Below are positions 47,196-55,523 of a DNA stretch of 64,000 nt, in pieces. The translations under genes and the position numbers were made by a program. Source of the DNA: Streptantibioticus parmotrematis. Lineage in GTDB: Bacteria > Actinomycetota > Actinomycetes > Streptomycetales > Streptomycetaceae. The stretch's first letter is position 1. Each line of letters opens with the position of its first letter. The notes beneath the pieces were generated by a model that was not told where the DNA came from, did no database searches, and saw only the letters and a list, made by a program, of their open reading frames with translations. The stretch lies in contig NZ_JAINVZ010000016.1 in assembly GCF_019890615.1 (NCBI RefSeq), forward strand, positions 62,001-126,000, in the 5' to 3' direction.

Positions 47196-48017
47196 TCATC
47201 GCGGCCAGATCGGCGGGTTGACGCAGAACGGGCCGCCCAGGTGGGTGTGTTCCGGGTCGTCCCGCGACAACTCGCCCTCTTCCGCGACGAGCCGGGCCGC
47301 GTACGGCTCGGAGTCGTCGCGTGGCGCGTAGCCGAGCGCCCGCGCGGAGGACAGGTCCCACCACGCCCGGGTGTTGGCCGAACTGCCGTACACCACGGTG
47401 TGGCCGACGTCCGGCGCGGTGAGCGCCGCGTCGAACAGCCGCGCCGCGTCGCCGGGGCTGAGCCAGAGCGACAGCATCCGCACGGTGGTCGGCTCGGGGT
47501 AGCAGGAGCCGATGCGGACCGAGACGGTCTCGACGCCGTGCTTGTGCCAGTAGAGGTCGGCCAGGTCCTCGCCGAAGCACTTGGACAGGCCGTAGAAGGT
47601 GTCCGGGCGGTGCGGAGTGTCGGCCGGGACCAGCGGCTCGCCCGGCTCCGGGCGCGGGGTGAAGCCCACGGCGTGGTTGCTGGAAGCGAACACGATCCGG
47701 CGCACGCCCTCCGCGCGGGCGGCCTCGTACAGGTGGTACGTGCCCTGCACGTTGGCGCGCAGGATCTTCTCGAACGTCGACTCCAGCGAGATCCCGGCCA
47801 GATGGAGGACGCCGTCCACCCCGCGCACGGCCTCGCGCAGCGCCGCGGCTCCCTCCGGATCGCCCAGGTCGAGGGTGATGGCGTCCGGTTCGCCCGGTAC
47901 CGGAACGACGTCGAGCAGCCGCAGGTCCCAGCCGTGCTCCGGCAGCAACTCCCGCATCATGCCGCCCACCGCGCCCGCGGCGCCGGTGAGCAGGAGCGTG
48001 CGGCGGGCGGCGGTCAT
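47196..48017 (-). CDS. udh: NAD-dependent uronate dehydrogenase-like SDR
   Basis: The 273-residue short-chain dehydrogenase has the NAD fingerprint LLLTGAAGAVGGMMRELLPEHGW, DGVLHLAGIS, the SSNHAVGF segment and the catalytic Tyr-Lys in DTFYGLSKCFGEDLADLYW, followed by VETVSVRIGSCYPEP. The SSNHAVGF, YGLSKxFGEDLA and RIGSCYPEP strings are those of uronate dehydrogenases, which oxidise galacturonate or glucuronate to the aldarolactone. It is divergent from kdgD, the dehydratase of the same pathway, and the spacer holds facing promoters and operator-like boxes. GGAGGAGAG precedes the ATG. Confidence 0.8.
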   Translation of the reverse strand: MTAARRTLLLTGAAGAVGGMMRELLPEHGWDLRLLDVVPVPGEPDAITLDLGDPEGAAALREAVRGVDGVLHLAGISLESTFEKILRANVQGTYHLYEAARAEGVRRIVFASSNHAVGFTPRPEPGEPLVPADTPHRPDTFYGLSKCFGEDLADLYWHKHGVETVSVRIGSCYPEPTTVRMLSLWLSPGDAARLFDAALTAPDVGHTVVYGSSANTRAWWDLSSARALGYAPRDDSEPYAARLVAEEGELSRDDPEHTHLGGPFCVNPPIWPR

Positions 48018-48061
48018 GGGCTCTCCTCCGGTCGGTCGCGCGGGTCAGTCACCCGGACGTG

Positions 48062-48077
48062 GTTCACGCATACGGAC
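48062..48077. promoter_or_regulatory. Operator-like box 1, GTTCACGCATACGGAC
   Basis: This 16-bp box follows GTTCA-N8-GAC and lies at the expected transcription start of udh. A second copy lies at 48156-48171 beside the kdgD start, and a related palindrome lies upstream of the semialdehyde dehydrogenase gene (53922-53947). Confidence 0.55.
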
Positions 48078-48081
48078 GGCC

Positions 48082-48110
48082 AGCGTAGGAAGCGCTCACA
48101 TCGCGGTCAA
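48082..48110 (-). promoter_or_regulatory. udh promoter
   Basis: On the minus strand TTGACC (48110-48105) and TACGCT (48087-48082) are 17 bp apart, close to the HrdB consensus. Transcription would begin near 48075, inside box 1. Confidence 0.65.
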
Positions 48111-48125
48111 GGTTCCCCTTGACCG
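48104..48125. promoter_or_regulatory. 22-bp palindrome carrying both divergent -35 elements
   Basis: CGGTCAAGG (48104-48112) and CCTTGACCG (48117-48125) are perfect inverted arms around TTCC. Each arm contains the TTGACC -35 for one direction. Confidence 0.7.
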
Positions 48126-48148
48126 GCGTCGTGGTGGCGGCCTAGCGT
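48119..48148 (+). promoter_or_regulatory. kdgD promoter
   Basis: TTGACC (48119-48124) and TAGCGT (48143-48148) are 18 bp apart. Transcription would begin near 48155, at the left edge of box 2. Confidence 0.7.
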
Positions 48149-48155
48149 GGTGTGC

Positions 48156-48171
48156 GTTCACAAGTATGGAC
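48156..48171. promoter_or_regulatory. Operator-like box 2, GTTCACAAGTATGGAC
   Basis: It matches box 1 at GTTCAC-N3-TA-N-GGAC and lies at the expected kdgD +1. A repressor bound here would block initiation. Confidence 0.55.
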
Positions 48172-48251
48172 GACGGTCATCATTTCGAACGACACGCGCC
48201 GATGCCCGAGGGGGTGGCGGCGACGAGGACCGTACGACGAAGGGGTTCCGC

Positions 48252-49211
48252 ATGACCGCACTCCCGCTGGCCCGGCGTCTGCGCGGCCCGCTGTTCTTCC
48301 CCGTCACCGCCTTCGCCCCCGACGGCGGCCTGGCCCTCGACGCGTTCCGCGCGCACGTGCGCGCCGGGATCGAGGCGGGCGCCGGCGCGGTCTTCGCCTG
48401 CTGCGGCACGGGGGAGTTCCACGCCCTGGCGCCCGAGGAGTTCCACGCCTGCGTGGCGGCGGCCGTCGAGGAGGCGGCCGGGCGCGTGCCGGTCGTCGCG
48501 GGCACCGGCTACGGCACCGCGCTCGCCCTGCACTACGCCGGACTCGCCGAACGCGCCGGCGCCGACGGCCTGCTGGCCCTGCCCCCGTACCTGGTCGCCG
48601 CCGACCAGCCCGGCCTGCTGCGCCACTACACGGCACTCGCCGAGGGCACCGCGCTCGACGTCATCGTCTACCAGCGGGCCAACGCCGTGCTGACCCCCGA
48701 GAGCGTCGTACGGCTGACCGAGGTCCCGGGCGTCATCGGGCTCAAGGACGGCGTCGGCGACCTCGACCTGATGCAGCGCGTCGTCTCCGCGGTCCGCTCC
48801 GCGCGCCCGGGCCGCGAGCCGCTGTACTTCAACGGGCTGCCCACCGCCGAACTGACCGGCCTGGCCTACCGGGGCATCGGGGTCCACCTCTACTCCTCGG
48901 CCGTCTTCTGCTTCGCCCCCGAGATCGCGCTCGCCTTCCACCGCGCGCTGCTCGGCGACGAGGGCGACGGCACCGGCGCCGACGACGCGGCCGTGAACCG
49001 GCTGCTCGACGTCTTCTACCGGCCGCTGGCCGAACTGCGCGACCAGGGCGCGGGATACGCGGTCTCCCTCGTGAAGGCGGGCGTGCGGCTGCGCGGCGGC
49101 GAGGTCGGGGAGGTCCGCTCCCCGCTGAGCGAGCCCGCCCCGCGGCACGTCGCCCGCCTCGCCGAACTCATCGACCAGGGGCTGACGTTGGTGGACGAGC
49201 TGAAGGGGTAG
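48252..49211 (+). CDS. kdgD: 5-dehydro-4-deoxyglucarate dehydratase
   Basis: KdgD dehydrates and decarboxylates 5-keto-4-deoxyglucarate to 2-oxoglutarate semialdehyde. The 319-residue protein is a DapA/NAL-superfamily TIM barrel. It has RGPLFFPVTAFAPDGGLAL, the GTGEFHAL phosphate-like loop, the Tyr in IVYQRANAVLTPE and the Schiff-base Lys in GVIGLKDGVGDLDLM, with the KdgD-type YFNGLPTAEL. ATG 48252 has GAAGGGG 6 nt upstream. It is divergent from udh; together they cover two steps of oxidative uronate catabolism. Confidence 0.9.
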   Translation: MTALPLARRLRGPLFFPVTAFAPDGGLALDAFRAHVRAGIEAGAGAVFACCGTGEFHALAPEEFHACVAAAVEEAAGRVPVVAGTGYGTALALHYAGLAERAGADGLLALPPYLVAADQPGLLRHYTALAEGTALDVIVYQRANAVLTPESVVRLTEVPGVIGLKDGVGDLDLMQRVVSAVRSARPGREPLYFNGLPTAELTGLAYRGIGVHLYSSAVFCFAPEIALAFHRALLGDEGDGTGADDAAVNRLLDVFYRPLAELRDQGAGYAVSLVKAGVRLRGGEVGEVRSPLSEPAPRHVARLAELIDQGLTLVDELKG

Positions 49212-49338: not shown

Positions 49339-50568
49339 TTGAACGTCTCCGCCTTCCTCTACCCCTGGGACGTCGTCGGGGATCCGGACGCCCCGCGGCG
49401 GCTCGCCGACCTCGGGATCGGCCGGGTGACGCTGGCCTCCGCGTACCACTCGACGCGCGCGCTCACCCCGAGGCACCCGCACCGCAGGCTGGTCACCGCC
49501 GCGCACTCCGCCGTCCTGTATCCGCCCTCCCCGGAACACTGGCGGGACGTGCCCCTGCGACCGCGTGCGCAGCGCTGGCTGGAGTGCGCCGATCCGTGGG
49601 GCGAGGCGGCGGCGATGCTGGCGGACGCCGGGATCGAGGCGTCCACCTGGGTCGTGCTGACCCACAACTCCCTTCTGGGCGGCGAGCATCCCCGGGCCGC
49701 AGTGCGCAACGCCTACGGTGACTCCTACCCCTGGGCGCTCTGCGTCGCCCGGCCCGAGGTGCTGCGGTACGCGGTCGCCCTCGCGGCGGAGGCCGGGGCG
49801 CGGCCCGGGGCGCGCGGGGCCGAGCTGGAGGCGTGCGGCTGGTTCGGCGTGGAGCACGCGCACGCGCACGACAAGACCGCGGGCGTACCGCTCGGCGGGG
49901 CCGCGCGCTACCTGACGTCGCTCTGTTTCTGCGGCAGTTGCCGCCACGGCTACGCGGAGCTGGGCGCCGACCCCGACGAGCTGCGGGACGCGGTGCGCGC
50001 GGCGCTCGCCCCGGTGTGGTCGGGGGAGCGGGGGCCGGGCCCCGGGCCCGACGACCGCGAGGGGGAGTGGGCGGAGGTCGTCGCGTTGCTGGGCAGCGGG
50101 TTCGCCGCGTTGACGCTTGCCTGGCGCACCCGTGCGGCCCGCGCGTTCCAGCGGGCGACGGTGGCGGCGGTGCGCGAGCGCGCGGGGCGACCGGACTTCC
50201 CCGTCCTGCTGCACGCCGACCCCGCGCCGCACCGCAGCGGTTCCAACGCCGGGGTGGACGCGGCCGACGTCCTCACGCACGCGGACGGCGTGGTGCTGCC
50301 CTGCACCGGGCCCGAGGCGGTCCGCGAGGACGTGCTGCGGCCGTTCCGTACCGCTGTCGAGGGGCGCCGCCGCGATGGTGACGAGCCGGTGATCGCCGCC
50401 AACCTCACCGTCGTCTCCGGCATGGGCGGCAGCCCCGGCACGCTGGCCGACGACGCCGCCCACGCCGCCGCGCTCGGCGCCAGCCAACTGCGGCTCTACC
50501 ACGCGGGAGTGGCCGCCGACGCGGACCTCGCGCTCGCCGCCCGCGAGCTGGCCCGGCTGAGCGCGTGA
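49339..50568 (+). CDS. Uncharacterised TIM-barrel-like protein of the uronate region
   Basis: I cannot assign a family with confidence. The 409-residue cytosolic protein opens MNVSAFLYPWDVVGDPDAPRRLADLGIGRVTLAS, which looks like a glycosidase-type beta/alpha barrel strand. It has STWVVLTHNSLL, EACGWFGVEHAHAHDKTAGV and a CFCGSCRHGY motif with three cysteines that could bind a metal, and later VLLHADPAPHRSG, DGVVLPCTG and a C-terminal AAALGASQLRLYHAGV. The start is TTG 49339 with CAGGAG upstream. It lies 127 nt after kdgD on the same strand, so a role in uronate or uronoside processing is plausible (inference). Confidence 0.6.
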   Translation: MNVSAFLYPWDVVGDPDAPRRLADLGIGRVTLASAYHSTRALTPRHPHRRLVTAAHSAVLYPPSPEHWRDVPLRPRAQRWLECADPWGEAAAMLADAGIEASTWVVLTHNSLLGGEHPRAAVRNAYGDSYPWALCVARPEVLRYAVALAAEAGARPGARGAELEACGWFGVEHAHAHDKTAGVPLGGAARYLTSLCFCGSCRHGYAELGADPDELRDAVRAALAPVWSGERGPGPGPDDREGEWAEVVALLGSGFAALTLAWRTRAARAFQRATVAAVRERAGRPDFPVLLHADPAPHRSGSNAGVDAADVLTHADGVVLPCTGPEAVREDVLRPFRTAVEGRRRDGDEPVIAANLTVVSGMGGSPGTLADDAAHAAALGASQLRLYHAGVAADADLALAARELARLSA

Positions 50569-53060: not shown

Positions 53061-53843
53061 TCACAGACGGCGGGTGGCCAGGGTCAGCCGGTCCCGGGCG
53101 TCCAGCAGCGCGTCCCTGATCATCTGCTCGTGCCCCGGGGTGAGCCGGGCCACCGGCACCGAGCAGCTGATCGCGTCGCGCGCCGGGGTGCGGTACGGGA
53201 TCGCCACGCCGAAGCAGCGCAGGCCGAGGGTGTTCTCCTCGCGGTCGACCGCCCAGCCGCGCTCGCGGATCGCGCGCAGTTCGTCGATGAGCCGCTCGCG
53301 GTCGGTGATCGTGTGCTCGGTCACCGCCTCCAGCGTCGCGGGCAGCAGCCGTCGCACCTGCTCGTCGTCGTGGGTGGCCAGCAGCGCCTTGCCCAGCGAG
53401 GTGGCGTGCGCGGGCAGCCTGCGGCCGACCCGGGTGAAGGGGCGCAGGTAGTGCTGGGACTGCCGGGTCGCGAGGTAGACCACGTCGGTGCCGTCGAGCC
53501 GGGCGAGGTGGATCGTCTCGGTGGTGTCCTCGGCCAGCCGGTCCAGGGTGGGCCGGGCGGCGGCCACCACCTCGTCGCCGTCGATGTAGGAGGTGCCGAC
53601 CAGCAGCGCGCGCACCCCGATCCCGTAACGGGTGCCGGTGGCGTCGGTCTCGATCCAGCCCAGGTCCACGAGCGTGCGCAGCAGCATGTAGAGGCTGGAC
53701 TTGGGGTAACCCACGGACTCCTGGACGGCGGCGAGCGTGTGCATGCCGGGCCGGCCCGCGAAGAACTCCAGCAACTCCACCGTGCGGACGGCGGACTTGA
53801 CCTGCGCCCCACCGTTCGCGGTGCCGCTCTCGACGCCGCCCAT
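53061..53843 (-). CDS. IclR-family regulator, probable controller of the aldarate genes
   Basis: The 260-residue protein has an N-terminal wHTH (SAVRTVELLEFFAGRPGMHTLAAVQESVGYPKSSLYMLLRTLVDLGW, about 17-63) and an IclR effector domain (TIHLARLDGTDVVYLATRQS; LPAHATSLGKALLATHDDEQV; ENTLGLRCFGVAIPYRTPA; GHEQMIRDALLDARDRL). AAGGAG precedes the ATG. It is divergent from the semialdehyde dehydrogenase gene, and a near-perfect 26-bp palindrome lies between them. Sugar-acid pathways are commonly IclR-controlled, so it likely senses an aldarate or keto-acid (inference). Confidence 0.92.
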   Translation of the reverse strand: MGGVESGTANGGAQVKSAVRTVELLEFFAGRPGMHTLAAVQESVGYPKSSLYMLLRTLVDLGWIETDATGTRYGIGVRALLVGTSYIDGDEVVAAARPTLDRLAEDTTETIHLARLDGTDVVYLATRQSQHYLRPFTRVGRRLPAHATSLGKALLATHDDEQVRRLLPATLEAVTEHTITDRERLIDELRAIRERGWAVDREENTLGLRCFGVAIPYRTPARDAISCSVPVARLTPGHEQMIRDALLDARDRLTLATRRL

Positions 53844-53921
53844 CGTTCGACTCCTTCGACCCCTCTTGTCCGCACGGTGCGCCGGACGTAGGCTCGCCGA
53901 CGACCATATTCACATTCACGG

Positions 53922-53947
53922 ATGCCGTTCAGTATACCGAACGGCAT
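53922..53947. promoter_or_regulatory. 26-bp near-perfect palindrome between the iclR-type and aldehyde dehydrogenase genes
   Basis: The arms ATGCCGTTC and GAACGGCAT are perfect, and the centre AGTATACC differs from symmetry at one pair. TATACC in the centre could be the -10 for the dehydrogenase gene. This is a strong operator candidate for the divergent IclR protein. Confidence 0.75.
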
Positions 53948-53960
53948 GGGAGGTCTCGCG

Positions 53961-55523
53961 GTGACAGCGGCAGCAGAACCAGTCTGGAGCGTCGACCCCA
54001 GGACCGGGAAGCGCCGCGAGCAGGTGACCGCCGAGGCCGCGCCCGCCGACGTCGACGCCGCGGTGACCGCCGCCGCCGGTGCGGCGAGCGCCCTGGCCGA
54101 CCTCGCCGCGCGCGCCGCCTTCCTGCGCACCGCCGCCGAACTGCTGGAGGGCGACGCCGAGCGGGTCATCGCCACCGCCGACGCGGAGACCGCCCTCGGC
54201 ACGCCCCGGCTGACCGGTGAACTCGCCCGTACCGCCCACCAGTTGAGGTCCTTCGCGGACGTGGTGGACGACGGCGCCTTCCTCGACGTCGTCATCGACC
54301 ACGCCGACCCGGCGGCGGCCCCCGCGCCCCGCCCCGACCTGCGCAGGACCAAGGTCCCGCTGGGCGTCGCGGCCGTCTACGCCGCCTCCAACTTCCCGCT
54401 CGCCTTCTCGGTGCCCGGCGGCGACACCGCCAGCGCGCTGGCCGCGGGCTGCCCGGTGGTGGTGAAGGCCCACCCGGGTCACCCGGCGACCAGTGAGCTG
54501 ACCGGTGCGCTGCTGCGCCGGGCGGCGGCCCGCGCCGGACTGCCGCAGGACGTGGTCCGCGTGGTGCACGGGTTCGACGCGGGTGTCGCGCTGATCCGGC
54601 ATCCGCTCGTCGCCGCCGCCGGGTTCACCGGTTCGGTGCGCGGCGGCCGGGCGCTGTACGACGCGGCGGCGACCCGGCCGCGGCCGATCCCGTTCCACGG
54701 CGAACTCGGCAGCCTCAACCCGGTGCTGGTCACCGAGGCCGCGGCGGCGGAGCGCGGGCAGGACATCGCCACCGGGCTCGCCGCCTCCTTCACCCTGGGC
54801 GCCGGGCAGTTCTGCACCAAGCCAGGTCTCGTCCTGGTCCCCGAGGGCACGGACGGCGACCGCCTGCTGATCACGCTCACCGACGCGGCCCGCGAGGTCC
54901 CGCCCCGTGTGCTGCTCGACAGCCGCATCCGCGAGGCCTTCCTCGCCGGGGTGCGCGAACGCCTCGCGCTGCCCGGCGTCACCGCCCCCGTGGAACCGGG
55001 CGAGGGCGAGGGACTGGACGTGCGCGCCGGTTTCCTCAGCGTCCCCGCGAGCCTGCTCGCCGCCGACAGCCACGCGGCGCTGACCCACGAGTGCTTCGGT
55101 CCCGTCACCGTGATCGCTCGCTACGGGTCACCCGATGAGGTGGAAGCCGTGCTCGCCGGATTGCCGGGCAACCTGACCGCGACCCTCCACCTGTCCACCG
55201 CGGAACGTGAAGGCGGGCACGGCGCCGCCGAGCTGGTCGCGCGGGTGTCGGCGCTGGCCGGACGCGTGCTGGTGGGCGGCTGGCCGACCGGCGTCGCGGT
55301 CACGCCCGCCCAGCACCACGGCGGGCCCTACCCGGCCACCACCTCGCCGTACACCTCGGTCGGCACCGCCGCGATCGAGCGCTGGCTGCGGCCGGTCGCC
55401 TACCAGGACACGCCCGCCGCGCTGCTCCCGCCCGAGCTGCGCGACGACAACCCGCTGGGCCTCGCGCGCCGCGTCGACGGCCGCCGGGAGGCCGGGAGCG
55501 GGGCGGCGGCGCGGCTAGGCTGA
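53961..55523 (+). CDS. NADP-type aldehyde dehydrogenase (2-oxoglutarate semialdehyde dehydrogenase-like)
   Basis: The 520-residue enzyme has the ALDH catalytic Cys in GAGQFCTKPGLVLVP, the catalytic Glu in FHGELGSLNPVLV and the VYAASNFPLAFSVPGGDTASALAAGCPVVVKAHPGHPATSE segment typical of the KGSADH group. In oxidative uronate catabolism this group oxidises 2-oxoglutarate semialdehyde, the KdgD product, to 2-oxoglutarate. GTG 53961 is chosen because GGGAGG (53948-53953) lies 7 nt upstream; earlier ATGs at 53922 and 53946 lie inside the palindrome. It is controlled by a divergent IclR protein. Confidence 0.88.
   Translation: MTAAAEPVWSVDPRTGKRREQVTAEAAPADVDAAVTAAAGAASALADLAARAAFLRTAAELLEGDAERVIATADAETALGTPRLTGELARTAHQLRSFADVVDDGAFLDVVIDHADPAAAPAPRPDLRRTKVPLGVAAVYAASNFPLAFSVPGGDTASALAAGCPVVVKAHPGHPATSELTGALLRRAAARAGLPQDVVRVVHGFDAGVALIRHPLVAAAGFTGSVRGGRALYDAAATRPRPIPFHGELGSLNPVLVTEAAAAERGQDIATGLAASFTLGAGQFCTKPGLVLVPEGTDGDRLLITLTDAAREVPPRVLLDSRIREAFLAGVRERLALPGVTAPVEPGEGEGLDVRAGFLSVPASLLAADSHAALTHECFGPVTVIARYGSPDEVEAVLAGLPGNLTATLHLSTAEREGGHGAAELVARVSALAGRVLVGGWPTGVAVTPAQHHGGPYPATTSPYTSVGTAAIERWLRPVAYQDTPAALLPPELRDDNPLGLARRVDGRREAGSGAAARLG

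Follow-up and report, generated by a model that had tools for sequence, protein, structure and literature searches.

A proposed IclR-type regulon for oxidative uronate catabolism in Streptomycetaceae, with tandem operators at the predicted transcription starts of udh and kdgD

IclR-family control of uronate-related catabolism is familiar from the KdgR protein of gammaproteobacteria, whose pectin and galacturonate regulon serves the isomerase pathway. The locus described here appears to share this type of control, but its operators differ from the KdgR motif, given as RWWGAAACGNCGTTTCAKKA by Suvorova and Gelfand 2021 (PMC8222616). In that work, IclR-family group 1 sites are described as palindromes GKTYCRYW3-4RYGRAMC, arranged in tandem with 18-22 nt between centres. 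The proteins are reported to bind as tetramers, with the dimers on one DNA face, and sugar-acid genes together with COG1012 aldehyde dehydrogenases are over-represented in the regulons of the subgroup with 12-nt spacing (PMC8222616). In Agrobacterium and Pseudomonas, hexuronates are broken down oxidatively by a pathway with Udh, KdgD and alpha-KGSA dehydrogenase (PMC6353982), and a uronate dehydrogenase from Streptomyces has been characterised biochemically (PMC4476818). A literature search found no account of the regulon proposed below, and the main text of PMC8222616 does not name it.

We analysed 64,000 nucleotides from the GC-rich (72%) genome of Streptantibioticus parmotrematis, a member of the Streptomycetaceae; this whole stretch is called the window. 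By kdgD, the closest named relative is Streptomyces sp. ICBB 8177 (96% identity). Two genes are divergently transcribed, an arrangement also found in 76 of 80 further loci: udh (47196-48017, minus strand), for a predicted uronate dehydrogenase (phmmer matches to the solved structures 6mfh, E 1e-73, and 3rft, E 4e-66), and kdgD (48252-49211, plus strand), for a predicted 5-dehydro-4-deoxyglucarate dehydratase (NF002958 over its cut-off, E 3e-120; solved structure 4ur7, E 2e-60). Further along lie iclR (53061-53843, minus strand), whose product carries HTH_IclR (PF09339) and IclR_C (PF01614) over the Pfam gathering scores, and aldh (53961-55523, plus strand; PF00171), a candidate gene for 2,5-dioxovalerate (alpha-ketoglutaric semialdehyde) dehydrogenase. 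The nearest solved structures of the aldh product, 1eyy and 3v4c, are NADP+ aldehyde dehydrogenases. The start of aldh was assigned to the GTG at 53961, a position kept in relatives, because the first in-frame ATG, upstream at 53922, overlaps the edge of an operator. The window lacks one step of the pathway, putatively that of gudD, an unlinked gene. Its product matches 3vdg (E 3e-147), a solved structure described as a "probable glucarate dehydratase", and also TIGR03247 (E 3e-77), though with a score lower than the curated cut-off. The activities of Udh, KdgD, the aldehyde dehydrogenase and GudD are thus predicted ones, assigned by sequence similarity. The set recalls the Agrobacterium and Pseudomonas pathway in its Udh, KdgD and aldehyde dehydrogenase, here as members of a regulon; it differs in that the co-regulated dehydratase is of the glucarate dehydratase type and the regulator of the IclR type.

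A conserved gene 3' of kdgD (49339-50568, plus strand) is syntenic with kdgD in many loci across genera and may be co-expressed with it. Searches of its product against Pfam and NCBIfam gave no match. Its AlphaFold model (pLDDT 90.7) predicts a TIM-barrel, glycosidase-like protein, with GH42-type enzymes and PgaB as top Foldseek matches, and the protein is possibly an intracellular uronide hydrolase.

The original prediction had assigned a promoter to each of the divergent genes. For udh these are a -35 element TTGACC (48105-48110, minus strand) and, at 17 bp, a -10 element TACGCT (48082-48087); for kdgD, TTGACC (48119-48124, plus strand) and, at 18 bp, TAGCGT (48143-48148). All four elements are present at these positions and are supported by conservation among orthologs, TTGACC-N17/18-TA(N)3T being conserved in the kdgD promoters of relatives. 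Several relatives are without a recognisable promoter or box on the udh side. The transcription starts are predicted at about 48075 for udh and 48155 for kdgD. A simple sigma-70 consensus scan called neither promoter, because TAGCGT and TACGCT score low against TATAAT, and we judge the scan uninformative in this GC-rich genome. For aldh, the predicted promoter is TTGTCC-N17-TAGGCT (53866-53894, plus strand).

At each of the two predicted starts lies a 16-bp box, GTTCACGCATACGGAC (48062-48077) at udh and GTTCACAAGTATGGAC (48156-48171) at kdgD. Both had been anticipated, and they are the sole zero-mismatch matches to the predicted box in the 64 kb. Of the formula given for them, the GTTCA...GRAC arms hold and the spacing is corrected from N8 to N7; the suggested search motif, GTTCA-N8-GRAC, has 68 matches in the genome, none of which is one of the boxes. 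What had been overlooked is that each box is half of a tandem operator, formed by two 16-bp imperfect palindromes of the type GTTCAY-N4-RTGRAC at a pitch of 19 bp, about two helix turns. The partners are GGTCAGTCACCCGGAC (48043-48058) at udh and GGTCATCATTTCGAAC (48175-48190) at kdgD, both weaker than the proximal boxes and both on the transcript side. The interval first proposed, 48062-48171, encloses the proximal boxes but is too narrow, since the tandem partners and a third operator fall outside it. This third operator, ATTCACATTCACGGAT-GCC-GTTCAGTATACCGAAC (53908-53942), lies between iclR and aldh and is conserved in relatives (L031-L045).

In their 16-bp length, GTYC...GRAC arms and 4-nt centre, the boxes are like group 1 (NGT-12-ACN) sites as characterised in PMC8222616. 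Their consensus GTTCAY-N4-RTGRAC agrees with GKTYCRYW3-4RYGRAMC, with some latitude at the outermost G and at the centre, which is not strictly W; the 19 bp found at all operators falls within the range of 18-22 nt between centres; and an IclR-family gene that could be the cognate one, 53061-53843, lies nearby. The subgroup consensus NGTYCRAW4TYGRACN, from the same work, has R-A at the inner half-site positions where the boxes have A-Y (GTTCAY). There the first position, A, fits R, and the second is C, T or G, not A, so that the boxes are closer to group 1 as a whole than to the strict subgroup consensus.

As a regulon probe, the single box GTTCAN7GRAC was discarded as unspecific, with 172 matches in the genome. 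The tandem pattern TCAN7GNAYN5TCAN7GNAY has exactly three exact matches in the 7.4-Mb genome, namely the udh, kdgD and aldh operators, a result that alone is not independent evidence because the pattern was derived from these three sites. One-mismatch matches number 33, one of them at the unlinked glucarate dehydratase-type gene. A position-specific 35-mer profile trained on other genera only and run on the window places the three operators at ranks 1-3 (36.8, 33.3 and 16.4 bits; next 9.9), with the iclR/aldh operator second and the udh pair (48043-48077) third; the udh pair alone is borderline, because the best score over 60 random 64-kb sequences was 17.0 bits. Among the 63,985 16-mers of the window, an other-genera profile ranks the kdgD proximal box first, its distal box fourth and the udh proximal box fifth, the weak distal box of udh alone being 36th. 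With a leave-genus-out sequence model, the kdgD and aldh operators are the sole genome matches at E<=10 (aldh, E 0.005); the udh operator was missed at this threshold because it is too weak.

The tandem arrangement was recovered in held-out promoters. A box profile made from aldh and gudD boxes only, run blind on 14 kdgD promoters, gave positive scores at just two of the offsets from -30 to +40, namely 0 (+15.6) and +19 (+7.1), and negative scores at the rest. In the converse test, 15 aldh promoters were positive at 0 and -19 only. Moreover, in all 74 further udh-kdgD intergenic regions, outside the training set, there is a tandem site that scores 12 bits or more at pitch 19, although they do not count as 74 independent events because many of the source genomes are related. 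Other pitches, from 14 to 30, gave such sites in at most 13 of the 74, shuffles reach one in 0.14%, and 62 of the regions hold two separate operators. The boxes are thus conserved in orthologous intergenic regions, in line with the original prediction.

The gudD operator (G000:C23:388313-388345) stands directly after the -10 element, and the same promoter-operator layout precedes relatives of gudD from several genera and from one further family. At udh, kdgD, aldh and gudD alike, the order is TTGAC (or TTGTC)-N17/18-TAN3T, then 0 to 16 bp, then the operator. Since the genes for uronate dehydrogenase, the dehydratase, KdgD and dioxovalerate dehydrogenase all share the tandem operator, we regard them as one oxidative uronate-catabolism regulon.

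We think that the IclR protein encoded at 53061-53843 is most likely the one that binds these operators. An operator lies upstream of iclR in every Streptomycetaceae relative examined and is near-invariant across genera. All 29 genomes that have a close kdgD also have the gene, against 1 of the 12 that do not (Fisher p 4e-9, uncorrected for phylogeny), the exception (G024) having iclR and the aldh operator and no close kdgD. In some other actinobacteria iclR lies between udh and kdgD, and in other families beside kdgD. That a single regulator, probably this one, shuts both genes by occupying their start sites had been proposed from the intergenic region; conservation, the operator at iclR itself, the genome-wide pattern search and the co-occurrence with kdgD support that part of the proposal well, and the role it gave to symmetry finds no support. 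The boxes might instead be operators of this regulon that are bound by another protein, an IclR paralog or a member of another family, with the linked IclR acting elsewhere. IclR-family genes are numerous in genomes, and a second close paralog of iclR exists in two relatives, one of which has it next to a paralog of kdgD. Against this stand the near-invariant operator at the linked iclR, the way iclR tracks and adjoins kdgD, and the recognition-helix columns, invariant in 17 orthologs, and we consider a different binder unlikely. Two named identities for the protein were rejected by their curated cut-offs, KdgR (NCBIfam NF011671; 120.3 against 275 bits) and BhcR (NF045644; 176.6 against 350 bits).

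We hypothesize that udh and kdgD each have a sigma-70-type promoter of their own, the two being independent and facing away from each other, with an IclR-family operator directly 3' of each. From the conserved layout of -35, -10 and operator, the operator would lie over the predicted start and extend about 35 bp into the transcript. An IclR tetramer, as two dimers on one DNA face of each operator, would cover the region from +1 to about +35 and block transcription initiation of both genes. The same protein would act at the iclR/aldh intergenic operator, controlling aldh and iclR itself, and on the unlinked gudD. A uronate- or aldarate-derived inducer would then release IclR and so turn on the entire pathway, in which Udh, GudD, KdgD and the aldehyde dehydrogenase lead to 2-oxoglutarate. 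On the minus strand, the strongest operator box (53927-53942) holds TATACT, a candidate -10 element of iclR that reads TATNCT in nearly all relatives; if it serves as such, iclR would repress itself. Placement downstream of the -10 suits a repressor that blocks initiation, and we assign this reading, with start-site occlusion repressing the whole regulon, a probability of roughly 0.83.

IclR could also be an activator or a dual regulator. PcaU and PobR are IclR-family members that activate. As the operators of four gene types all lie 3' of the -10 element, a position that suits blocking polymerase and not recruiting it, we hold activation to be somewhat less probable still than a different binder.

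Repression at each start site by IclR has no need of the mirror symmetry on which the original prediction centred. The 22-bp inverted repeat that it described, CGGTCAAGG-TTCC-CCTTGACCG (48104-48125), does carry both -35 elements, abutting, in 9-bp perfect arms around a 4-nt centre. It recurs with a 6-nt centre in a relative of the same genus, as might be expected if it were a regulatory site coupling the two promoters. Yet the distance between the -35 boxes is 8, 10, 15, 48 or 61 bp in relatives, and their abutting is seen only in this genus, the spacing being variable outside it; on this ground we reject the palindrome as a conserved operator. Inverted repeats this good, perfect over 9 bp or more and with 3-6-nt loops, number 12 in the window. 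Single promoters, those of aldh and gudD, carry the same promoter-operator unit, so each unit stands alone. Nor is the whole block nearly symmetric about 48115, as had been claimed: compared base by base, 48043-48190 is 40.5% self-complementary, whereas random stretches of 148 bp have a median of 42%, and the mirroring is confined to the order in which the elements stand. The inverted repeat is a local accident of spacing, and a coupling function for it is very improbable. That the boxes are chance similarities, as the 172 matches of the single pattern might suggest, is refuted by the offset test and the 74-region test together with pitch, position and conservation, and we give it next to no credence.

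Beyond the four core targets, the tandem pattern was also seen in other genera. It occurs upstream of a sodium:solute symporter gene (L094, L095, L097 and L098; PF00474 on L094), a candidate uronate transporter; a similar tandem site in L096 has no ORF called there. A search of the present genome for a homologue of the L094 symporter, run without a positive control, gave no match at E<=1e-30. The pattern also precedes polysaccharide lyase family 8 (PL8) genes (L100 and L101; Pfam on L100) and, in L102, the gene for a protein that combines an alginate-lyase domain and a ricin-type lectin. Such genes would fit a role in taking up or releasing uronates, the sites having been found by pattern alone, which is weaker evidence than that for the core targets. 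A near-perfect operator (L103, about 2192-2224, with a matching site in G019:C9), showing the pattern on both strands, lies shortly 5' of the start codon of a kdgD paralog. In one locus (L061, 317-2357), gudD lies near genes for gluconokinase and a GntP-type gluconate permease.

In summary, the regulon appears to be new, while the kind of switch is familiar and its mechanism known for the IclR family. It seems to us somewhat more probable than its opposite that an actinobacterial IclR repressor not described before controls the entire oxidative uronate/aldarate regulon by way of start-site operators of 19-bp pitch, and that in other genera this regulon takes in the sodium:solute symporter and secreted polysaccharide lyases (PL8 and alginate-lyase-like). 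The analysis suggests the likely role of an IclR regulator that had no name and draws attention to an uncharacterised gene syntenic with kdgD (49339-50568), and the operators could become parts of uronate- or aldarate-responsive biosensors. Operator, proposed repressor and targets together provide a testable regulon by which Streptomycetaceae and related actinobacteria may turn on the oxidation of uronic acids that derive from pectin and glucuronan.
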